From: Geosiphon pyriformis
Taxonomy: Eukaryota > Glomeromycota > Glomeromycetes > Archaeosporales > Geosiphonaceae
Reading direction: 5' to 3'
NCBI GenBank assembly: GCA_016748015.1
Contig: JAAOMT010000134.1
Coordinates: 673,732-737,731, forward strand
DNA length: 64,000 nt
Below, piece after piece: positions 7,640 to 59,805 of this stretch; position 1 is the first letter of the stretch, and each line of letters begins with the position of its first letter. The notes beneath the pieces are model-generated. The model had not been told where the DNA came from, searched no databases, and saw only the letters and a program-made list of their open reading frames with translations. Made by a program: the position numbers and the translations under genes.

Positions 7640-7965
7640 ATTAAAGATTTTTTTACTCTTTTTTAAATATTATTAATGCTATTTTTATTGTTAATTCTGT
7701 TATTAATAAAAGTTAATAAATCTTTAATAAGCTAATTTTTTTCCAAAATATTTCTCTATATTTTAAACTATGTATATTATTGAACTTATAATGAAATAGC
7801 CAATTTTATACCAATTATTTGTATAGTTACTTTATAATAAAAATCGATTCTTTTATAAAAAATTTTTATCTATAAGCTCTTCAAAAATATGTATAGTTAT
7901 TTTGCTATAAAAATCAACTTTTTTATAAAAAATCTTAACTATAAACTATTTAATAATATAAAAAA
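7640..7965 (-). repeat. Inverted fragment of the LTR
   Basis: Read on the minus strand, this matches the 3' part of the LTR at about 8690-8970. The shared landmarks are a CTATAG-type block, two copies of an AGCAAAATAACTATACAT-like word, and the following TTAACTTTTATTAATAACAG region. It stops just before the 5' LTR begins. It is best explained as a truncated or solo LTR of the same family inserted in the opposite direction. Confidence 0.6.
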
Positions 7966-8019
7966 AATAAAAATAAAAATAAAAATATAATAAGAAAGTT
8001 ATTATTACTAGCTAAAATT

Positions 8020-8644
8020 TAAGATATTATTTAACATGAAATTATTCTTATAATTTATATTATTAATTAATATATATTATTATTTTAAATTATTACTTAT
8101 TATCTTATTAAATTATTTAAATTATTATTTAATTAATAATTTAATTTGTACAGAATACAAATATAACCAAATTAAGATAATTAAATTATGTAATATACTA
8201 AATTATAGAATATTTAAAATTTGTCAAAATATTTAGTAATTTGATAAAATATTTAACAGTTTACTAAAATAATCTATAGTTTGCAAAAATAACTTGTAGT
8301 TTAATAAAATATATTTTTAGTTTGCTAAAATATTAGAAAAAAAAAGAGTGCTAGATTATAAAATAGTATTACAACAAATTATATAAAAAAAAAGCTTTTT
8401 TTTTTAAGAAAATATATCTTAATTAAAATTACTATCTTTTCTAGTATCTTTTATACAAATTAATTTCAATAAAAACTTACTTTAAAAACATAAAAATTCT
8501 TAATTATTTCTATTGTAAAATTAACTATTCTATATTAATATTTTGAAATTAATTAATTACTAATTTTAATAATTGTTAATAATTTTCAGACCTGAATTCA
8601 AAACAACTTCTTTAAATTATATTTTCTTATTTTTTTATTTGGTT

Positions 8645-8686
<42 letters not shown>

Positions 8687-8990
8687 TTATTAAGTAGCCT
8701 ATAGTCGAAATTTTCTGTAGAAAAATTAACTTTCATAGCAAAATAACTACACATATTTTTAAAAAGTTTACAGAAAAAATTATTTTATAAAAGAGTCAAC
8801 TTTTATTGCAAAATAACTATACAAAAAATTAACATAAAATTGATTATTTTATTATAAATTTAACAACATATATAGGTCAAAGTATAAAAAGATACTTTAG
8901 AAAAAAAATTAGTTTATTAGAAATTTACCAATTTTTATTAACAGTAAAATTAACAACATTTAGAAAAAAATAGAAAAATTTTTGGTAATA
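8020..8990 (+). repeat. 5' LTR
   Basis: Homologous along its length to 12590-13555. Shared landmarks are the AATTAATAATTTAATTTGTA block near the start, a ladder of AGTTTGCAAAATA-like words, ATTACAACAAATTATATAAA, and the AAAATAACTATACA blocks near the end. The expected 5' TG reads TA here but TG in the other LTR, which is one of many G-to-A differences. A 37-T homopolymer (8647-8683) interrupts this copy only. Confidence 0.65.
8647..8683 (+). repeat. Poly-T tract
   Basis: An uninterrupted run of 37 T inside the 5' LTR. The 3' LTR has only short TTTAT words at the equivalent place, so the run arose after the LTRs diverged or is an assembly length artefact. Confidence 0.9.
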
Positions 8991-10380: not shown

Positions 10381-12589
10381 CAAGCTAATAAATAACAAAA
10401 AAAAACAAAATTGTATGATAATAAAATAAATTAAAAAAAAATTAATTTTAAGAAACAAATTGAATAAGTATGGATTTAATATATAAGATTAGTCTTATAA
10501 AATATCTCAATCACTATTCTTTTTAAAAAATAACCAAAGAATTTAAAAGTAGAAAAATAGTTTATATTGTTAATAAATAATAACATACTAGTATAATTTT
10601 ATGTCTTATATCAATATTTTTAGAATATAATATCAGGTATTAGATATGCTTTTTAGTTATATTTTATTTAATAATCTTTAAATACTACAATTACATAAAT
10701 CAGAAAAAGAGTAGGAAAATGCCAACAAATAATTTTTTATTTCAAGATATTTAAATACTTGAAAGTAAAAAAAGAGAAATAAATAATATAAGAAAAATTA
10801 AATTAATAATTGTTATTTTATTTCTTATATTTGATTATATTTTTTTATAGCTAAGAATCTCATTGTTTATATAGTTATTAAAGATAATTAATAATCAAAT
10901 TAATAATTAAGTCAATAATTAAGTTAACAGTTAGATCATTAATTAGGTCAATAATTATTATCTAAAAATAGAGTGGCTAATTATATAATATTAGTAACTA
11001 ATAAATGTAATAATTAATAAAAACTATGAGTTTCAACCATAATAATACTTTGTTAATTAATAAAAAAAGTATCAATTATCTTAATAATAAAACCAAGAAA
11101 ATTTTTTATTATTTAATAATTAATTTTAACAATTAAACTGCTATTATTATAAAATCTTTAAATACTGAAAACACAATTGCTAAAAAATGTAAAAAATCAA
11201 TAATAACAAAATAATTAACATTATTTTTTCCAATAATATCAATCTTATAATTTATTATTATTTATTTACTATTTCTTAAAATTTTAACTTATAGTTTTTA
11301 GTATTATTCTATTACAATTAGATAACCAAAACAATAAGTAAATTATTGTTTATACTAGTTAAATACTTAAGCCAACAAAATTGAAATATAATTTAATTAA
11401 ATTAAAAACCACAACTATTATTTAAATTTTCAAAAATTTTTAACAATACTTTTAAGAAAGACCAAAATTTAATATTATTACAAACAATATTGGTCTTAAA
11501 TAGCTTAATAAAAAAAATCTGAACAAAATACTAAACAGTCTTAATAAAATAATTTTTTAACTGATTATATATATATTATTTACTATAAATTAGAAAAACT
11601 ATATATTAATATTAATAGTTTTTCAAGAATAAGGCAAAATTAATATTAGTATCAATCAACTTATTCAATAAAACATTCAATAAAAACAATAAATCTAAAA
11701 AACTACAACAACTTAAAAATATATTTAGAAATTTTCACAATATTAACAAACTGATTTTTAAGTAAAAAACACTAATTACAACATTAATTCAGATAGTATT
11801 TTTTATATTATAATAAAATCTATTATTAAAATTGCAAAAATTCAACCAATTTACTTAGATTAGTTTAATATTTAGTAATTTTATCATAATTATTCTTTAA
11901 AATATTCAACAATTATTCTAAAAATTAATAATAACATTAAAAATACTTCTTAACTTATTTATAACAATTAATAAAAGTCAAATTAATTATACTTAGAAAA
12001 AAATTACAGTCTCAATAGTAAAAAAATTACAAAGCTATTATTTTTATAAAAGAAAAACAAAAAATTATTTTTGAAGTTATTTACCAGAATTTTTAAAGCA
12101 AGTTTTAAAAAAAAACATTTTATTTATTTTTATTAATCTTTTACCAAATATCACAATTCAACAAAAATTTTAACTGTGTTTTAATAAACAAAACAATGAT
12201 TATACTCTTATTTATTAATATTTTTATATTAAAAAAATGCTTTATAAACAAAAATTAAAGCTTAAAGCAACAAACTTTATTCTTAAAATAATACAAAAAC
12301 AAATTTACAACAAATTCAAAACAGTAATTAAACCAAAAACACTTATTATAAACTTAAAATAGCTTTTAAACTTTATAAATTATTTAATATTTGTAAAAAT
12401 ATTCTATAAAATTCAATATTTTAACTATTAAAAATTCAATATATTAAAAAACTTATAAAACTAAAATTTCAATAATTTTTAAAACCAATTACATCAATAA
12501 TTTTAGATTATTATTTAAAAATTATAGAAAATATTAAGACTTTAATAAAACTTAGTTTTGAAAAGAAAATTATATTATTAATAAAAATT

Positions 12590-13555
12590 TGAAATATTAT
12601 TTAGCATAAAATTATAAAAATAATTTCTATTATTAATTAGCCTATATTATTATTTTAATTTATTACTTATTATCTTATCAAATTATTTGAATTATTATTT
12701 AATTAATAATTTAATTTGTATAATATACAAATTGTAATAATTGAATTACATAATATTTTGAACTATATAATATTTAAAGAATTTGCCAAAATTTACCGAA
12801 ATTTACCAAAATAATTAATAATTTACTGAAAGACTTAATAATTTGTAAAAATTATTTGTAGTTTACCAAAATGTATTTTTAGTTTAACAAAATAATAACA
12901 AAAAGAAAAATACAAATTTATAGACTAATATTACAACAAATTGTATAAAAAAAGAGCTTTTCTTTTTAAAAAAATATATTTAAGCTAAAATTATTTTTAC
13001 TAAAAATATCTTCTTTAGTATTTATACAAATTATTCCAACAAAAACTACATTAAAAAACAACAAAATTATAATTAATTTGCTTGAAAATTTTCAAATTTT
13101 AACTAATGTTTTGAAATTGACTAGTTACCAATTTCAGTAATTTATTAGTAATTTTAAGTCTGAACAAAAAACAAATCTTTAAACAAAATTTTTTTATATT
13201 TCTTTTATTTATTTATTTATTTACTTTTAATATATATATTAGAGTAGCTTATAGACAAAATTTTTGTAAAAAAATTAACTTTTATAACAAAGTAATTACA
13301 TATTTTTAATAAGCTTTCAAATAAATATTTTCTAAAAAAAAGTTAATTTTTACTACAAAGTAACTATACAAGTAATTAATATAGAATTGGCTATTTTACT
13401 TATAAGTTTAACAATTCAAATTATAGGAGATAATTTAAAGATAAATTTAGTTATTAAAGATTCAATAACTTTTAATAATTAGGAATTAACAACAAAACAA
13501 CAACAATAACAACATTCAAAAAAAGAGACCAAAAACTTTTAATAATATTGTTATT
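12590..13555 (+). repeat. 3' LTR
   Basis: Direct-repeat partner of 8020-8990. It begins TGAAATATTATTTAGCATAA and retains more C and G than the 5' copy, for example GCCAAAATTTACCGAAATTT where the left copy is more AT. It ends around AACATTCAAAAAAAGAGACC. No gene is present. Confidence 0.65.
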
Positions 13556-26586: not shown

Positions 26587-26678
26587 GTGGCGTTGCTGTA
26601 CGGCCTGTTGTGGCAAAGGAGGCGTTGGCCATTGATGGTTGAGATGAAATAAAATTTATTACATTAAAAAATTTTGTA

Positions 26679-27150
26679 ATATGGGTATACTGTAAAAAAA
26701 CCAGACAAAGTGAACATTTGACTATATGAGTTAAAAATGGCTGATGTAGCAAAAAAAAATTGGCTAGAGTGACTGATTCTATTTAGCTTTGATTTTTAGC
26801 ATTAGTGGCATATGTCTGAATTCATGGATACATTAATTTGGTATCATTTTTCATATAAGCCTATTTCTATATAAAAAATATAAATATGAAACTAATTTAC
26901 ATCCACTATGGAACCAAAGAATTACAGCACTATTAGAAGCATTCTAAAAAAAGAACAGGGTGAAAAGATTGTTCCATACATTTTTAAAATGAATGATACC
27001 CAAACACTTTAGGTATATCTAGATAAAGAAAAAATTGCTTATGAAATTTATCAAGAACGAAAAATACAAAGCAATAAACCAGCATTAACGCTTACGTATG
27101 ATGAATCAAGAAAGAAACGAAAAATTGAAGAAACGTAAATAAATTTAACG
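26679..27150 (+). repeat. Left arm of about 470-bp inverted repeat
   Basis: Pairs with 30700-31172 read on the other strand. The outer end is ATGGGTATACTGTAAAAAAA here and ATGGGGTACACTGTAACAAA in the partner, followed in both by CCAGACAAAGTGAACATTTG. A TA lies at both outer edges, as expected for a DNA transposon that targets TA, but I cannot prove a target duplication. This arm keeps the C and G residues; the other arm is AT-converted. The left arm starts less than 100 bp after the bromodomain stop codon. Confidence 0.75.
26908..27138 (+). pseudogene. Small ORF inside the inverted repeat, one internal stop
   Basis: An ATG-started frame of 76 codons plus terminal stop, interrupted once by TAG at 27010, in a place where CAG would restore Gln. 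It reads as plausible protein with a basic end (DESRKKRKIEET). I do not recognise the family. The corresponding frame in the right repeat arm is destroyed by many G-to-A and C-to-T changes. It could be a relic of an element-encoded protein, or the first exon of one. Confidence 0.4.
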
Positions 27151-27789
27151 TAAATGCTTTCCACCAAGGCCTCCACTGATCAAGCGACCTATCAACGAAA
27201 AATTGTTTCTTATAGTTGATAAAGGACTGCTTGAAGCCATTCGTTGAGCCTTGATTCGCATTTCACTGTTTTGATACGATTATAACCAAAGAGTCAAATA
27301 ACGTAACAATAATTTTGATTTTTGTAGACACAATTTTATTATCTTTAATTATAGAATGCGATCGCTCTTGAAACATAATTAATGATAAAAGCACCAGAGT
27401 GATTGCATGGGAGGAAAATACTCGGACCCAAAGCCATTAATGAGTATAACCTATTCTGGTAAAACCTATACTAAACTTCATTATTATTTTATAGTGACTG
27501 GTTATGCAACATAACATTTTATACTCTGTGTAGATATTTGATCAACTGTTAACACATATACACAAACTGTATCGCATACAATTTTTATACATATAAAGAA
27601 ATAGGAATCACGGAATCAACTCGAGAAAGAATTGTGGATCATTTTAAAATATGTTAGGTATTACGACAACCATATGTATTTATTCAAACTTCGAGAATTG
27701 AATGAAAAACTTTGCCTATCCGAATATTTTTTAGATTAGAAAATACCCATCATTAATTAAAGAGAAATAATCGATGAATTTTAATTTTG

Positions 27790-28600
27790 GATTTCTTTAC
27801 ATTCTCATGATCTGGTAACCAAATCCAATCACGAATTTTTGGTACAATTATACCGTCGACTGATTTGGATAACCTTAGTTTATTAATTACTCCTGTTTGA
27901 ATTTCGAGCTCGCTCTGGAAATTAAATATGAATGTTATATTGAAGTTCATATAATATCAAATGTACGTATTCAGCATACTTTAAAATGCCTACCACGAGA
28001 ATATAAAGACCTCCAAAAAATCTGTCACATCAATGAATCCAAATGGTAGTGTTGCAGATTTGATCTGCGAAACTTTGTAAACATGCTTATTTATAAAGCA
28101 TAATTTACTATACGTTAACCGGTCACCTAATAAATATTTCCATGTAAGATTTATGTGTTAAAATAAGTAAATGAATGACTTATGAGTGCAGTAAATAAAT
28201 TACCAATGCTTTGAATTATGAATGTGCATAACTGCTTCGATTTTTCTGCGCTTTTGTCCAAGTAATTTCATAATAAGGAAACAAGACCAAATACAGCTTC
28301 TTTCAAAAGCTTCTCTGAATCTTTGTTCACATGTTTTGAATCTATGTTTTCGGGACCACCTGATACTTCGATAAAAATAACAGCCTTGTTGCTCGAATTT
28401 CGTACTCCCAAACCATCAGCTTGGTTTATAGATAAATCAAACTTGGGAAATATCTTCTTCACTTCCCTCATGCAATCCAATTCAACTTCAATCCAATGAA
28501 ATTTGTATTCACTATATACCGATTGAATTGCTTTGAACAGCGAACAATCCTTTCGACGATATATGTACGTTCACCAATGTCTCTTTTTTAAAGGACCTTT
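27790..28600 (-). pseudogene. Decayed member of a multicopy AM-fungal protein family
   Basis: Three minus-strand coding fragments lie in order. The first (about 28270-28580) includes SINQADGLGVRNSSNKAVIF and IEVSGGPENIDSKHV. The second (about 27990-28140) includes RLTYSKLCFINKHVYKVSQI. The third (about 27790-27915) ends VPKIRDWIWLPDHENV. I recall this combination (an 'IEVSG' core, then 'KIRDWIWLP' at the end) as an abundant uncharacterised family in Rhizophagus-type fungi. The copy is broken: a TGA at 28268-28270 replaces the Arg expected in SLL(R)NYLDKSAE, and the amino-terminal part needs a frameshift near 28540. The IEVSG strand could belong to a restriction-like nuclease fold, but I cannot show catalytic residues. 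Confidence 0.6.
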
Positions 28601-28639
28601 CTTTGCCATAAAATAACTAATCGAATTAATATAAATAAC

Positions 28640-30699
28640 AACCATATTAGTAAAAACCAAAATAATTATTAATATAACTGTTGCTACTACTGTGCTAAAA
28701 TTTATGAATTACCAAGTTTTGATAAAAATGTCAATTGTATTACTTAATTATTTATATTTTTATTAATTAAAACTAGTTACAAATTGGTTTATTATAATTT
28801 TATTATAAATTCTGAAAATAACAATATATTAAAATTGTTAAAATATGATATATTTAACAAATTATTATAATATTATTATTATAATTTATTATAGTAATAA
28901 TTTACAAATATTTACATATTTTATTTTAATTAACAAATAAGTAAAATTTATTATCTTAGTTTACATAAAGTATATTTATTTGGTTTTCAAAATAAAGCAA
29001 TATGTAAACAAATTAATTATGTACTAAATAAATATAAAATTATTAACAAAGATTTTAATAGTATATTATTTAATAAAATAAAAAAATTAAATAAAAACAA
29101 AAAACATTTAAAAATTATTTGTAATAATACAAAAAAACAAAATAAAAATAATGTTATTATTTGATTTTAATATTTAATAATTTGTAATTATTATAAAAGT
29201 ATTATATTAAATTTTATGATATTTAAATATATAAAATTCAAGTATGATAATAGTTTTGAATTGATTAAAAAATTATAGTATAAAATAACTGTAAATTATG
29301 TAATTTATATTATTAAAAAATTATTTTCAATTTTAATATTAATTTTTTTTTAAATTATAAAAAACAAAAATATTTATTTATTTATTAAGAATATTATTTA
29401 TTTTAAGTTAATATTAAATAATTTTAATTTAAGAATTTTTGTTTTTTATAAAAATTTTTTTTCTTTATTTGTAATTTTTAGGTATTAAATCTATTTATTT
29501 GTTTTTTATTATTATTTAATATGTGTGATTTAATTATTATTTAGTATATATAAATAAACTAGATATTTATAATTAAATATAACTTATGTTTTTACTATAT
29601 AACCAATTATTTAAATTAATTAAGATTATATTATACATTTATAATAATATTAATACTACTATTTAAATCAAAAAACAATATATATTTATAACATAAATCA
29701 AAATCAAAAACTTTATTAATATTAAGCATAAAAATTATATTATTTGATAAATATCTAACTAAATTATACAAATTATATAAAACAAAAAAAATATTATTAA
29801 CTAAATCATTTTTTTTTATTGTAATTTTATATTTAAATTTATATAATTATCTTTTTTTTCTATAATTTTTTAAATAGCAAACAAAAAAAACTAAATATAA
29901 TTAAGCCAATTTATTATTTTTAAATATTAAAAAAACTTTAATATATTAAATATTAAAGATAATACTCTTATATATAAATATATATATTTAATTATTTACC
30001 AGAATTAAAAATAATAAAAATAATATATTAAAGAAAAAAATTCAATATTTTAAAAGATTTTTTAATAATTTTAAGTAAATATTAGTATTTAATTTTTATG
30101 TAAAAATATAATCTGAAAATTTAATTTTTTATAATAAAAACAAATTATTTTAGAGTACTGCCTATTATATAAATAATTTTAAATAATAACAAATAGTTAT
30201 TTATAAACAATATTTATTAATATATATACAAATTAACTGTAAATTTGCTAATAAAACTTAAACTTATATAAAAATTTATTTATTTTATATTTAAGAATTA
30301 ATTAATTGTAAAAGTAATTTTTGTTTTAAAAACCAAACTTTTTTACTAAAATGCTAATTTAAAAACTAAAAAAATATTTTTAATAATATTATCTTTTAAA
30401 ACAAATAATATATTATTTTATTTTTTTTAACTTATTTTTTAAACATTATTATTATATTTTTTATTAATAAGAACATAATGTTTTTTAATATTAGGTTTAA
30501 TTTTAAAGTAAGTAAAAACATTATTTTTTAAATTAATTATTAAAATTTTAAATAATAATTTTTTATTACTAATTTTATTATGTAAAACTTTTATAATATT
30601 ATATATTAAAATTGTATTAATAAGTATAAACTAAAACACTATTTTGTTAAGTAATATTTTTACAGTTTTTTTTCTATAATTTATATTTATAAATTTGGA
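28640..30699. other. Extreme AT block inside the putative element
   Basis: About 2 kb with hardly any C or G and no open frame worth noting. It is probably the most mutated part of the inverted-repeat element or of a nested insertion. Confidence 0.6.
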
Positions 30700-31172
30700 A
30701 TTTTAAAAATATTTTATGTTTTTTAATTTTATGTTTTTTTTTTGGTTTATTATATATAGATATTAATAATTATTTATTGCTTTGTGTTTTTTATTCTTTT
30801 TAATAAATTTTATAACCAATTTTTTCTTTATTTAAATATTTTTAAAGTATTTAAGTATTATTTATTTTAAAAACATATGAACCAATTTTTTTACTTTGTT
30901 TTTTTTTAGAATGCTTCTAATAGTGCTGTAATTCTTTGGTTTTATAATGGATTTAATGTAAATTAGTTTTATATATTATTTTTTATATAAAAATAAACTT
31001 ATATGAAATATGATATCAAATTAATATAGATTTAAAATACAACCATAAATTCAGACATAAGCCACTGCTATGTCATCAAAGTTCAATTTTTTTCTGCTAC
31101 ATCAGCCATTTTTAACTTACATAGTCAAATGTTCACTTTGTCTGGTTTTTTGTTACAGTGTACCCCATATAA
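30700..31172 (-). repeat. Right arm of inverted repeat, AT-converted
   Basis: The reverse complement aligns to 26679-27150 over the whole length, with very few insertions or deletions. Differences are dominated by sites with G or C in the left arm and A or T here. The outermost 150 bp next to the Rpt2 gene are least affected, while the inner part is nearly stripped of C and G. It has lost the open frame seen in the left arm. Confidence 0.75.
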
Positions 31173-45005: not shown

Positions 45006-47444
45006 ATGAAGTGTCGCCCTCGTTTTCTCGCTTTCCTTATTGCTGCCGCACTTTCCTTGGCAGTAGCCGAAAAAGATAAAAAAACAACTCCCATAGAGCC
45101 AAAACCCGAGTTCAAGGTAAGACGGCGTATTTTCCAACGAAGGCTTGGAAAAACTTTTGACATAAAGAAGAAAGGAGCTTTTTGCCTTTTATCGGTTTAA
45201 ATAGCTGGAAAGCAACGAATTCTGTTTCAGCAAGTCCCAACTTTACCGACAACACGTTTCGAAGATCTTTAAATATATATTTCTTATTTCTCTATTAGTA
45301 ACTTTTTAAAAACATTTTCATAGGCAACAACCATCAAAGCACCTTTCTTGGAACAGTTCACTTCGGACTGGACAAAACGTTGGTCACCGAGTGAAGCTAC
45401 GAAAGAAACAAAAGACCGTGAAGAGATATTTAGTTATATTGGGAAGTGGGAGGTCGAAGAACCGAGCGTATTCCCAGGCATAAAAGGTGATACCGGCCTC
45501 GTGGTAAAAACCGCAGCGGCACATCACGCGATATCTGCACCTTTTGCCAATCCATTGGATAATACGGATAAAACGCTAGTTATTCAGTGCGTAAAAACCA
45601 TTTTTGGTTAACCTCGATCCTTCGGAAAATCTAATCCAATTTGATTGTTTTTATAATTTTCAGATATGAAGTTAAACTTCAAAATGGGCTAGAATGCGGT
45701 GGTGCTTATTTAAAATTATTAACGGAATCCGAGAAGGGTATTCAGGCCGAAGAATTTTCCGATAAAACACCATATACAATTATGTTTGGGCCGGATCGAT
45801 GTGGCGCCACCAATAAAGTGCACTTTATTTTCCGACACAAAAATCCAAAGACAGGCGTATATGAGGAGAAGCATATGAACTCGGCGCCGCCTGTAAAAGT
45901 ATCAAAACTTAGTACTTTATACACGCTTATCATAAGGTCAGCCAGCGAAAATATTTCCTATGATAATTTTAGACAGAGTTTAAAAGACGGATTTTCCTTT
46001 TTTTCAGACCGGACAACACCTTCGATCTTCGTATCAATAATGAGAGCTCGAAGACTGGGAGTCTTTTAGAAGACTTTACCCCATCTGTTAACCCAGTGGC
46101 TGAGATCGAGGATCCTGAAGGTACTATCCACTTCAACTAAATTATTTGTTTGGAAAAATCTAATAAATATATGTTTGAAATTAGATAAAAAACCCAAAGA
46201 TTGGGTGGACGATCCAAAGATTCCGGATCCAAGTAAGCTTTAAGAGAATTTGATAGCCTTTCTTTGAAGTCGTTTTTATTGAAATGATTATTTGCCTAAT
46301 AGACGCTAAAAAGCCAGATGATTGGGACGAAGATGCTCCATTTGAGATTCCAGATGAAGATGCAGTTAAACCTGATGATTGGTTAGAAGATGAACCAGAA
46401 ACTGTCCCTGACCCAGATGCCGAAAAACCTGAAGATTGGGATGACGAGGAGGATGGTGATTGGATTCCTGAATCGATTCCTAATCCCAAATGTGAAACTA
46501 TATCCGGCTGTGGCCCTTGGAAACGTCCAACAAAACGTAATCCTGCTTACAAAGGCAAATGGTATTCACCGCAAATCGATAATCCGGCCTACAAAGGCCC
46601 ATGGGCTGCTCGAAAGATCCCCAATCCCGATTTCTTTGAGGATAAATATCCTGCCAATTTTGAGAAAATTGTAAATATAACTTAAATATTCACCCTCATC
46701 TGCTCTTGAGGTTTCATTTGTTTACGTATAAATTCAAATTCAATAGGCTGGAATTGGTTTCGAACTTTGGACGATGCAAAATGATATTCTATTCGACAAT
46801 ATTTATATTGGACACTCTGCGGAAGATGCAAAAAAATTATCTGATGAGACTTGGGATGTTAAATACAAAATCGAGAAAGCAGCTGAGGATTCGGAAAAAC
46901 CTGAGGATGATGATGACGATGACGATGTAATTATTATTTCGTCTTCTGCCAAAAATTAACCAAATGAGGAATTTACCTATTTATTTTTTCTTTGAAGTCT
47001 CCACCTGTTTTCTGGGAAGATCCCATCAAATTTGCGCAATACCATTTTACTCGATTCTTGGCTCGTTTGGTCGAAAGTCCTATCGATGCCGTCAGAGCAT
47101 ATCCGGAAACTGCTGGCGCATTGGGCGCGATTGCCGTTCTTTTCTTCTTATTAGTCGCAATTTTGTTGAATTTACTGACATCGGTCAAAAAGGTATGTCC
47201 AATTTATTCTGTCTTTAATTTAGTTGCTTTGGCTTATTCTCTCGAAAATTAATGATTAAAATCATGTTTATCCTCACAGCCCGTTGCTCCACACAAGAAA
47301 ACCGATGAACCCACTCCAGATGATGCAGATGGTGATGTCGCAGAATCCAGCACAACTAAGGATGAAGGAAATGATGGCGATAATGAAGAAGATGAAACAA
47401 AGAGCAACGCCAAAAAACGGTCAAAAACTCGACAAGACCAGTAA
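45006..47444 (+). CDS. Calnexin, ER lectin chaperone
   Basis: A membrane-bound chaperone that binds monoglucosylated glycoproteins in the ER. Model: join(45006-45116, 45324-45586, 45664-45936, 46008-46120, 46185-46232, 46303-46670, 46747-46926, 46998-47192, 47280-47444), 571 aa, in frame throughout. The signal peptide (residues 1-21) is [15 protein letters not shown]. The lectin domain includes [10 protein letters not shown] and [13 protein letters not shown]. The P-domain has both motif types: [36 protein letters not shown], then NPAYKGKW and NPAYKGPW. A membrane helix lies at about 491-512 ([20 protein letters not shown]), followed by an acidic cytosolic tail ending in basic [10 protein letters not shown]. 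One P-domain exon is only 48 nt. Confidence 0.96.
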
Positions 47445-50088: not shown

Positions 50089-52327
50089 TTAAATCCAAGA
50101 AGATTCGTAAATATTTTTCTGTGCAATAGTTAACTCTGGTTTGGTTGGATTTGAAAAGCTTTTTGGTGGAACCTCAATGACAGAGGTTATTTCAGGGAGA
50201 TAGAGGGATTCATATTCACGAAGGTTAGCCTCTGCCACTAGCCGGGATTTGCGCAAAACGTTCACCTCAAAACTAAGATTATTCTCAAAAGTGGAGTCAG
50301 TATCATCTGGAGGACACTCAGAATCTTCCTCCTCTTCATAATCATCATAGATTTGTTCCGGCTGGTATACTTGGGATCCTCCCTCATCGACATCTAATTT
50401 TACAGTTTCTGCTCGGCCAAATTCTTTTTGAAGATTTTGGACAAACATCAAAAATTTTTCCTCCGCTTCTCGAGCTGCATTGAGTTTTGCTTGAATAGAA
50501 GCCTTTTTTATTTCCTCCTTGGCTGCCAACTTTTTTGCAGCGGAAGCTGCATTTTTTGCTTCCAATTCAGCGATCTTTGCTTTAACTGTATTGGGTGTTT
50601 CTTTTACAAGGTAAGTTTTATCTTTGTTTTCAAGTATTTGGCCTGGAAATATTTCAGCCGCCTCGGGTTCCCTTTTCTCGGCGGATGCGGGAGCTGGTTT
50701 TCCTTTGACGAGAATGGTTTTATTCTCGATAATGGCTTTTTTTGGTACCAAGGGGGGTGACAGTAATTGAGTTATTGTTTGGTGTTCTTGTTCATCTTCT
50801 TGAGAAGACTGCAATACTTCAGCAATTGGAGATAGTGCAATACGGAAAGGTGCTATTGACATTATCTCATTAGTGGGACTATTTGACTCGGGAACTTCAT
50901 CCAGAGCAAGCGAAGACACTGGACTGTCCACCAAAGCCATTCTTTCGTCATCGAGAAATGACGAACTAACGCTTTGGTTGCTGCTGTTCGAAATTCCGGC
51001 ATCAATTTTCGGAGCGGCAGTTTCACGGAATTTCAGCTTTTCATTATAGATCGCTACATCACCACCACCCGGAGTATATTGAATATTGTCGAGCGAACCG
51101 ACGCGTGCCTTTACATTCTTAAATGTAATTTTGTCCGAAAAAATTTGAATATTACCCCCCTGTGGGACGTAGTTAATATTTTCCAAAGATCCGATTCGAG
51201 ACTGAACCGATGAGAAATTAGGCTTTTTAGAGAAAACTTTGACCTCCCCGCCTTTAGGGGGCAGTGTATCGAGTGAGCCTTCTTTAGACGCTAAAGATAA
51301 GCACAAGAAAAACTCGTTAAGACAAAATTACTACTATTAAAGACTAATTATTTATTATAATCTCCACCTTTTGGGGTGTGCTTGATATTATCTAATGATC
51401 CAACACGTGACTTGACTTTCGAGAAATCTGGTTTGGCTGAAAAGATCTTTTTTTCACCACCAACTTTAGGTGTGTATTTAATATTATCCAAAGATCCGAT
51501 ACGGGGTCTTACATGGGAAACATCAATTTTTTGATCAGCTGGTATGTGAGGTAATTTAACTGATGCGGAAGTCGAGATTAAATCTGGCTGAGATGCACGT
51601 CGTTTTGAGGGTTTTTGAGTTTCAGTACTTGATTGAACTGATCTATTGATCCGCGACGGAGTACTTTTTGTTGATCGATTTGATTTTAGTGTAGACAGTT
51701 TGGCTTGTGTGGATCCTACATTTGCGGTTGCTACCAGTGTTCCTTTAGAGGTGGGTGGAAGAACAGGGTTAGAAGCCTTTGGAATGGTTGAAGATTTTTT
51801 CAGGATAGTTGACGGAATAGGTTTTGTAGGAGTCCAAAGGTTCTTCAGAGTATTTAAGTTGTGACCAGTTTTTATAGGTGTTAAAGGAGTTTTTAAAGTG
51901 TTTGAAACGGACTTAGAAGGGCTTGAAGCATTCTTTCCAGGTGTTTTTGTGGGAGTAACAGTATTATTACTATTACCGGGTGACGTATTTGGGGTTGTTG
52001 GCAGGGAGTTGACTGGTGTCTGAATACCTTTTTTTCCACTACCTAAAGAATTTTAACAGTGTAAAATAGAAGAAACCGTGACTTCCTTCTTCATGATAAC
52101 GCTTGCCAAAAAATTTTATTACCATTCAATGTAACTTGTGTAGGCTTAGTAGCAGTATTTGCCGTCACGTTATTTAACGCCGATAATATTTGGGTTTTAT
52201 CTTCAAAGATAGTGTTATTCTTTGCAACAGTAGTTCTTGGAACAGATTTCATCGAACTAACAGTATTGGGGCCACCACCACTAACTTTCAATGCGACCAC
52301 ATTTGCTTTTTGTTGCAAAGTTGTCAT
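50089..52327 (-). CDS. Tau/MAP2/MAP4-type microtubule-binding repeat protein
   Basis: Likely binds and stabilises microtubules. Model: complement join(50089-51290, 51368-52042, 52123-52327), 693 aa, three exons in frame. Residues 1-245 are disordered, basic and Ser/Thr/Pro-rich. Tau-type repeats follow at 246-277, 278-293 (truncated by the intron junction), 294-321, 322-352 and 353-383. Each carries a GSLDNI-type core and most a P-x-G-G turn, for example VKARVGSLDNIQYTPGGGD and VQSRIGSLENINYVPQGG. The last repeat ends KLKFRETAAPKIDAG, very like tau's final repeat. The carboxy half has an Ala/Lys-rich coiled coil (KIAELEAKNAASAAKKLAAK) and an acidic stretch. The family is best known from animals; a fungal member is notable. 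A different donor near 51367 could add residues to the short second repeat. Confidence 0.88.
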
Positions 52328-58624: not shown

Positions 58625-59805
58625 ATGTCGTCTCTACCAGAAACGTATGCACAACGTGTCCAAAACTTTGTTGGTAACGCTACAGCACAAGCTTTGCTAC
58701 AAGTTATGGAACGTAAAAAGACGAATTTATGTGTTTCTGTAGATTTAACACTTAAACAAGAAGTGTTGAGTGTCGTTGAAAAAGTGGGACCCTTTGTTTG
58801 TTTGATTAAAGTGAGTAAAGGAAAAAAACTGATTTTTTGATTGAAAGAATTTTATTTTTACTAGAAAAATCAATTAAAGAATTTGATTCGAACCAAACTT
58901 TTTTCCCGAGAAATTTCTTTTAATTAAAAAAATAATTTAATGAAAATTTTATATTTTGTTTTTTTCATGAACCACCACCAGACACACATCGATATAATCC
59001 AAGATTTTGATCAAGAGTTAATTGAAAAGCTTCAATCGCTTCAAGAACGCTTTGATTTTTTAATTTTCGAGGATCGAAAATTTGCTGATATCGGTGGGAT
59101 CTCTACATTCTTCATTTTGTGCCAATTTTGTTTCATCACCTAAAATGTCTCGGCTTCCGTTAACTAATTATATTTAAACTTGGAAATTATCCTCTAATTT
59201 TTTTGAATTTACTGATAACTTTTGGATTTTAACGGGGGTGGCTATGCATCTCACGGTCTAATAACTTATCAGGCAATACAGTGAAATTGCAATATTCCTC
59301 GGGAATATACAAAATTGCCGAATGGGCTCACATTACAAATGCTCACCCGATACCCGGGGATGGAATTATTTCTGGTTTAAAAGAAATTGGAAAACCACTT
59401 GGTCGTGGACTATTAATTTTGGCTGAAATGTCATCAGCTGGAAATTTGGCTACCAGCTCATATACCGATGCAGCAGTGGCGATGGCACGGAGAAATCGAG
59501 ATTTTGTGATTGGATTCATTTCAATGAGAAAGTTGATTGTTAATTGTAAAAGTGGAGAAACAGATGAAGAAAAGGAAACAGGGAAAGAAGATTTTATTTA
59601 TATGACGCCCGGAGTTGGATTGAATGAATTTGGCGATAAATTGGGACAACGATATCGAACTCCACGTGAAGTTATATTGAATTGTCAGAGTGATATAATA
59701 ATTGTTGGGAGAGGAATTTATGCATCAGGACGGGATGTAGCTGCTGAAGCAAAACTTTATAAAGAAGCAGGCTGGAACGCATATTTAGAAAGATTACAGC
59801 TTTAA
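58625..59805 (+). CDS. URA3: Orotidine-5'-phosphate decarboxylase
   Basis: Last step of UMP synthesis, a cytosolic enzyme converting OMP to UMP. Model: join(58625-58810, 58982-59093, 59273-59805), 276 aa, near the fungal length of about 265-280. Landmarks are SVDLTL and VCLIKTHID near the start, the catalytic motif [12 protein letters not shown] (Lys95 with Asp93 and Asp98; the intron falls within Gly100), [16 protein letters not shown], and near the end YMTPGVGL and IIVGRGIY for phosphate binding. All active-site residues are present, so the gene looks functional. As in other fungi it is a separate decarboxylase rather than part of a UMP synthase fusion. Confidence 0.96.

Follow-up and report, generated by a model that had tools for sequence, protein, structure and literature searches.

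Repeat-induced point mutation (RIP) of Ascomycota is a C-to-T and G-to-A decay of repeated non-coding DNA that produces few transversions and leaves AT-rich deserts, and in these respects it resembles what we describe here for an inverted-repeat, DNA-transposon-like element in a 64,000-nucleotide stretch of Geosiphon pyriformis DNA (contig JAAOMT010000134.1, forward strand, positions 673,732 to 737,731; hereafter, the window). The element differs from RIP of Ascomycota in that its family has no CpA preference, its decay is graded, coding transposon parts are kept, and no enzyme of the RID/Masc1 type was found among the cytosine methyltransferase matches of the genome. RID/Masc1 proteins have been described as lacking a BAH domain and as carrying the triad EQT or EET in motif VI (PMC6709928, PMC7862722).

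Among other described systems, Zymoseptoria tritici shows Dim2-dependent mitotic C-to-T mutation in repeats at CpA (PMC8016269), which is alike in being confined to repeats, in needing no sexual cycle and in the DIM-2/DNMT1-like genes that are found here too, but unlike in its CpA context. Outside Dikarya, an index-based RIP signal was described for Entomophthorales, with major caveats voiced by its authors (PMC10515909); the AT-shifted repeats of an early-diverging lineage are the likeness, whereas that work used dinucleotide indices and methyltransferases of a RID-like domain layout and we use polarised changes and find ENV in motif VI. Methyl-CpG deamination of silenced transposons is matched here by a CpG-biased C-to-T spectrum in a small-subunit ribosomal RNA gene (SSU rDNA) copy and by CpG-depleted AT-rich stretches, but most G/C lost in the transposon arms lies outside CpG. 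RIP-like repeat signatures were confined to Ascomycota in a kingdom-wide k-mer screen, according to the summary of PMC12543289; PMC6572847 reports no RIP in chytrids; for Gigaspora margarita, PMC8647823 cites that RIP signatures went undetected, and it also describes CG-methylated transposons in Rhizophagus irregularis. Titles and opening lines of abstracts in the open-access library that was searched gave no account of such decay in arbuscular mycorrhizal fungi.

Results

One arm of the inverted repeat has lost G/C

By self-BLAST, positions 26679-27148 (left arm, forward strand) matched the reverse complement of 30703-31170 (right arm) with 75.6% identity (E = 1e-94), and the alignment of both arms scored 595, whereas 200 inverted pairs drawn at random within the window reached at most 238. 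The arms are the ends, ~470 bp each, of a DNA-transposon-like element belonging to a many-copy family. A DUF7869 region occurs in a gene of two relatives (L015 and L025; L-numbers denote loci and C-numbers contigs of the searched assembly), and because this gene is read as a transposase, the family is taken as a DNA transposon.

Transitions with G/C in the left arm and A/T in the right arm were counted as S>W and the opposite transitions as W>S. Over 464 columns (26600-27150), 46 S>W, 10 W>S and 20 transversions were found (S>W versus W>S, sign test over all 469 aligned columns, p = 1.2e-6), so that the one-directional difference claimed in the earlier note is real, although not uniform along the arm: the bias sits in the middle and inner parts (S>W:W>S = 11:1 at 26771-26915 and 34:4 at 26958-27150), and the outer part of the arms (104 columns, 26647-26770) is reversed, with 1 S>W versus 5 W>S (outer versus inner, p = 6e-4). 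In the 145 columns at 26930-27075, where the earlier note had counted by eye about 18, 1 and 3, our recount gave 19 S>W, 2 W>S and 3 transversions. Its remark that the changes reach beyond CpG also stands, as all CpN contexts were hit in the inner arm (CA 11/18, CC 5/7, CG 9/12, CT 9/15). When 37 S>W differences were compared with other intact copies, 29 were changes in the right arm and 6 in the left arm, with 2 undecided, which supports the A/T state being mostly derived in the right arm. The columns at 26916-26957 (forward strand, 41 aligned), which coincide with the start of a short open reading frame (ORF), were free of substitutions between the arms; in 21 decayed arms, G/C loss there was 0.38 as against 0.51 (p = 0.055).

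An old inherited subfamily, which the earlier note had named as a refuting alternative, was not supported for the right arm of the window: in comparisons with 20 other decayed arms, its lost sites were not clearly shared (smallest p before correction, 0.042; L050m107, misaligned upstream, was left out). Some sharing of lost sites was present among L013, L020 and L025 (p = 0.003-0.022). By eye, the right arms of L013, L015, L020 and L025 diverge from their own left arms past the middle of the ORF, and beyond this point those of L013, L015 and L025 have a common sequence.

The kept arm carries an ORF under purifying selection

The family was searched in the assembly that holds the window (406 contigs, 124.7 Mb). 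Of 77 candidates for one arm and 127 for the other, 40 each were scored; copy numbers are thus lower bounds, and copies are those picked by similarity. In total 52 arms were aligned, namely the two of the window and 50 from 46 loci. Twelve arms qualified as intact, for which a GC content of at least 0.27 and a reading frame open through codon 62 were required. Their ORFs gave a ratio of nonsynonymous to synonymous change (dN/dS) of 0.19 (pS = 0.37, pN = 0.093), with differences of 0.142, 0.087 and 0.206 at the three codon positions, highest at the third, whereas 21 decayed copies were nearly flat (0.307, 0.236 and 0.300; dN/dS = 0.40 with stops skipped). The arm ORF is therefore under purifying selection in intact copies, and one arm was kept because it was coding. 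In the window, the ORF (MEPKNYSTIRSILKK...; 26908..27138, forward strand, 77 codons including the final stop) lies in the kept left arm, inward of the outer terminal repeat, in a region with a GC content of 0.26-0.28, and is itself interrupted by an in-frame TAG at 27010-27012. In two intact relatives, the ORF gave no Pfam match at the cut-off.

Both inner arms could be seen in five elements (the window, L013, L015, L020 and L025), and in all five one arm was kept and the other decayed (GC 0.27-0.30 and 0.15-0.21, respectively; S>W:W>S = 23:2, 19:3, 26:7, 17:5 and 22:8, taking as left whichever arm is intact). For L028, a second outer end was seen and no inner second arm was found. These elements bear on the idea of a chimera, in which recombination would have fused a left half of recent origin with a right half dead for a long time, and the two arms would simply be of unequal age. 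In the window element, the left part (26679-28620) does have a GC content of 0.305 and the right part (28621-30690) one of 0.096, and family members share interior segments at differing identities. On the other hand, the same contrast of kept and decayed arms recurs in the four other elements, and the window arms parted recently, because they have in common an outer terminal repeat as well as features absent from other copies and differ by only 3 transversions in 145 columns. We regard the chimera as very unlikely.

Terminal repeats were recognised in 36 of the 52 arms. In the window, their outer parts are undecayed (26695..26762 on the forward strand, 96% complementary to 31084..31151 on the reverse strand). 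Sparing of outer terminal repeats as a general rule was ruled out by the low GC content of these repeats in decayed arms (0.24 in 12 decayed arms versus 0.35 in 14 intact arms, p = 8e-5), and since terminal repeats of decayed copies generally decay, the sparing is particular to the window element. The exact 24-base pattern of the terminal repeat gave no match in the genome-contig and viral-contig collections searched.

The decay is rich in transitions where selection is absent

In 23 decayed arms, 44% of the G/C sites were lost by transition, 2.8% of the A/T sites were gained and 5.8% of the sites were changed by transversion. The decay was graded. When all 52 arms were taken together, it increased along with transversions (Spearman 0.61), though not significantly within the 23 decayed arms (0.27, p = 0.21), and some arms combined many S>W changes with no more than 0-2 transversions (17/40 and 2 in L053, 10/38 and 1 in L044). 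Over 29 non-overlapping repeat alignments, in which windows with more than 8% transversions were left out, the ratio of transitions to transversions (ts/tv) fell from 7.0 below 20% GC to 4.1, 2.6 and finally 2.3 at 34% GC or above (p = 3e-8).

A rival account is relaxed selection with ordinary AT-biased mutation, in which the coding arm is conserved and the free arm drifts to an AT equilibrium. The earlier note had held the intactness of one arm against drift; this reasoning fails, since the intact arm was coding and under purifying selection, and the dN/dS of 0.19 together with the graded, transversion-correlated decay over all 52 arms is what drift would give. Its wider claim that general AT drift is insufficient was nevertheless borne out by contrasts within the same copies, in which the transition excess remains. 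Between L015 and L025, ts:tv was 117:9 in the right segment versus 51:20 in the coding segment (p = 1e-4), and between L012 and L021 it was 76:7 in the AT-rich interior versus 10:5 in the gene part (p = 0.018). When L014 was used for polarisation, S>W loss in L012 and L021 amounted to 34/387 in the AT-rich interior and 5/301 in the gene part (p = 4e-5), while the two parts did not differ in transversions (4/1679 and 3/997). The spectrum also differs from that of intact transposase copies at their fourfold sites, where the GC content is 0.295 and 22 transitions stand beside 24 transversions; these are small numbers from ten non-independent pairs after five L028 pairs of low identity had been left out. 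Furthermore, gene-rich DNA of the window is not at 10% GC (median 0.35 in 150-bp steps over 31.2-60 kb, 6/193 below 15%), and the 200-500 bp directly flanking the element have a GC content of 0.34-0.42 versus 0.096 inside, although the element may have inserted already decayed. In favour of drift, W>S transitions also exceeded transversions in the polarised triple, as in a generally transition-rich spectrum. In these contrasts, non-coding parts have an excess of transitions and no more transversions than gene-bearing parts, or even fewer. This requires, or at any rate favours, a mode of mutation special to transposon DNA that is free of selection, and we consider ordinary drift unlikely, if still worth a serious hearing.

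The AT-rich half and a desert repeat

The AT-rich half of the element (28621..30690) has an observed/expected ratio for CpG (CpG o/e) of 0.21. Within it, 28906..29947 (forward strand) aligned with the DUF7869-bearing region of relatives: against the transposase-like region of L019 it scored 637, as compared with 263 for one shuffled control, and transitions had removed 181 of 270 G/C sites and added G/C at 15 of 653 A/T sites, with transversions in 96 of 923 columns. Scores against L015, L021 and L025 were well above the controls and that against L013 modestly so (495 versus 413), while that against L020 (284) was below its control (323) and carries no weight. By these alignments, the AT-rich half is a decayed transposase-like gene.

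Two large AT-rich stretches of the window had GC contents of 0.15 and 0.10 and CpG o/e of 0.14 and 0.21, as compared with a CpG o/e of 0.96 in gene-rich DNA at 36-60 kb. In the desert at 1-19 kb, a ~1-kb AT-rich repeat occurs at 7940-8960 and 12512-13494, with more than 3,000 candidates genome-wide at first look; its less decayed copies L073 and L076 have a GC content of 0.19-0.22 versus ~0.13 in most.

C is lost preferably after a pyrimidine

In the arms, the mean loss per site by 5' base was 0.57 for T, 0.55 for C, 0.34 for A and 0.33 for G (40 sites; YpC versus RpC, p = 4e-4), and the arm consensus holds just one CpG. TpC was preferred both in the unpolarised comparison of AT-rich pairs (odds 2.0, p = 1e-13) and, after polarisation, in the triple (24/102 versus 34/279, p = 0.009); the desert repeat gave 77/228 for TpC, 186/751 for AC, 68/276 for GC and 4/36 for CC. 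CpG loss was raised in GC-rich repeats (75/427 versus 0.08-0.13 elsewhere). This pyrimidine preference would be expected if a cytosine deaminase, or other damage with the same 5' preference, acted on silenced transposon DNA independently of methylation. The preference is only about two-fold, however, CpC shows none in the pairs and in the first triple, T-to-C changes within T runs could inflate the unpolarised TpC figure, and CpG dominates in the SSU copy described below, so that we give this explanation a low probability.

A probably decayed SSU rDNA copy

The search of the assembly for SSU rDNA gave one full-length match (L081:256-2072, or C320:1044781-1046597) and two short ones. The full-length copy sits close to the end of contig C320, on which an arm copy was found as well. 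At 581 conserved positions, taken as the capitals of the Rfam consensus in 13 alignment blocks (blocks at model positions 183-267, 631-721 and 1357-1446 were left out), 20 S>W transitions, 3 W>S transitions and no transversion were found (p = 5e-5). The changes concentrated at CpG (12/47 versus 7/214 at other G/C, p = 6e-6; one of the 20, at a block edge, has no context). Over every position of the used blocks the picture was noisier (98 S>W, 33 W>S and 75 transversions), because taxa differ at such positions. We read this as a decayed copy; possibly it is an odd but working rRNA.

Primer sequences were also compared with this copy. AML1, AML2, AMDGR and GeoA1 had one mismatch each, AMV4.5NF two and AM1 four; mismatches of AML1, AMDGR, GeoA1 and AMV4.5NF were of the C-to-T or G-to-A type, that of AML2 was a transversion, and AM1 had two in each direction. 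As an exact pattern, AML1 had no match in this genome. The fit is plausibly that of an arbuscular mycorrhizal or related fungus whose SSU copy is itself decayed.

Cytosine methyltransferases and the case for RIP

A six-frame search of the assembly for the cytosine methyltransferase domain PF00145 gave 10 matches. A BAH domain lies upstream in L030 and, below the threshold, in L034, and both match DNMT1 chains and 9baq/9bap in PDB, which we take to be Neurospora DIM-2; L032 matches DNMT1, and the motifs of L035/L036 and L037 resemble those of DNMT2. A small single-domain gene, L029/L031, lies at C318:788280-789372, and L033 (C318:820713-821336), ~32 kb away on the same contig, is a damaged relative of L029. 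Motif VI was ENV in all six genes where it is visible, L033 being too damaged to show it. A RID/Masc1-type enzyme, which the earlier note had suggested looking for, was not found among the 10 matches, none of which has the EQT/EET triad, though a divergent, intron-split gene could escape such a search.

RIP in the strict sense would be RID-type C-to-T mutagenesis triggered by homology in the sexual cycle, and the earlier note had seen a resemblance to it. The resemblance holds for the directional spectrum in repeats with few transversions, as in the arms L053 and L044, and for two indices: TpA/ApT was 1.08-1.09 in AT-rich stretches versus 0.75-0.79 in gene-rich DNA, and (CpA+TpG)/(ApC+GpT) was 0.79-0.95 versus 1.14-1.25, although any randomised AT-rich DNA should approach such values. 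It does not extend to the context, as CpA was not preferred over CpY (arms, p = 0.34; AT-rich pairs, 0.265 versus 0.283, p = 0.36), nor to the outer terminal repeat, which is spared in the window element. Since context and enzyme do not fit and the decay looks graded, strict RIP is not supported, and we consider it improbable in spite of the fitting spectrum.

Neighbouring features

The left half of the element holds an unbroken piece of 100 amino acids at 28271-28570 (reverse strand) that gave nothing at the Pfam cut-off and looks crinkler-like. Host genes beside the element include those of the calreticulin family (46257-46685), of a protein with tau/MAP tubulin-binding repeats (50089-52052) and of orotidine 5'-phosphate decarboxylase (59233-59805).

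Discussion

In the explanation that we favour, and to which we give an even chance, cytosines deaminate in transposon DNA that is silenced and methylated, and purifying selection acts on its coding parts. Each arm originally had a copy of the short ORF; in lineages that transposed, purifying selection kept the ORF of one arm and not that of the other. Unselected transposon DNA then decays by transitions, mostly C-to-T on either strand, from ~30% towards ~10% GC. Methyl-CpG may deaminate first and other cytosines afterwards, preferably those after a pyrimidine, with CpG strongly preferred in the rDNA copy and mainly C after a pyrimidine elsewhere. We infer that the decaying copies are methylated and that the DIM-2/DNMT1-like methyltransferases of the genome are the candidate enzymes, in which case RID-dependent RIP would not be needed.

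Several observations weigh against this explanation. It gives no account of the spared outer terminal repeats of the window element. CG methylation alone fails to account for the loss outside CpG; CpG was not preferred in the AT-rich repeat pairs (3/13 and 15/80), and a low-GC stretch at 60-61 kb is not depleted in CpG (CpG o/e 1.75). The arm pair of L020 has 31 transversions. Over all branches of the L012/L014/L021 triple, 59 S>W stood against 42 W>S (34 versus 18 on the L012 and L021 branches alone), and of two further triples, one gave S>W:W>S of 106:112 and 117 transversions, the other 90:57 and 133 transversions; these transversions sit mostly on one branch, and their excess probably comes from unequal homology. 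Lastly, 18 copies of the desert repeat differed from their consensus by more W>S (775) than S>W (335) changes, in addition to 386 transversions. As the GC content of that consensus is only 0.11, we read its W>S changes mostly as retained ancestral letters against a consensus that is itself decayed.

The novelty of these findings is lowered by the index-based hints from outside Dikarya (PMC10515909), and caution is due in that RIP indices alone cannot separate mutagenesis from methylation-driven decay. A more far-reaching interpretation, which we think unlikely, is that repeat-confined C-to-T mutagenesis without RID or CpA preference, favouring C after a pyrimidine, operates in an early-diverging, possibly arbuscular mycorrhizal fungus, where it would erode unselected transposon DNA and an rDNA copy either as a RIP-like defence or as a by-product, outside Dikarya. 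A polarised, repeat-confined transition regime without a recognisable RID would make it testable whether transposon-directed mutagenesis, or look-alike decay driven by methylation, is more widespread than supposed, and such a regime would account for deserts of 10% GC beside normal genes.

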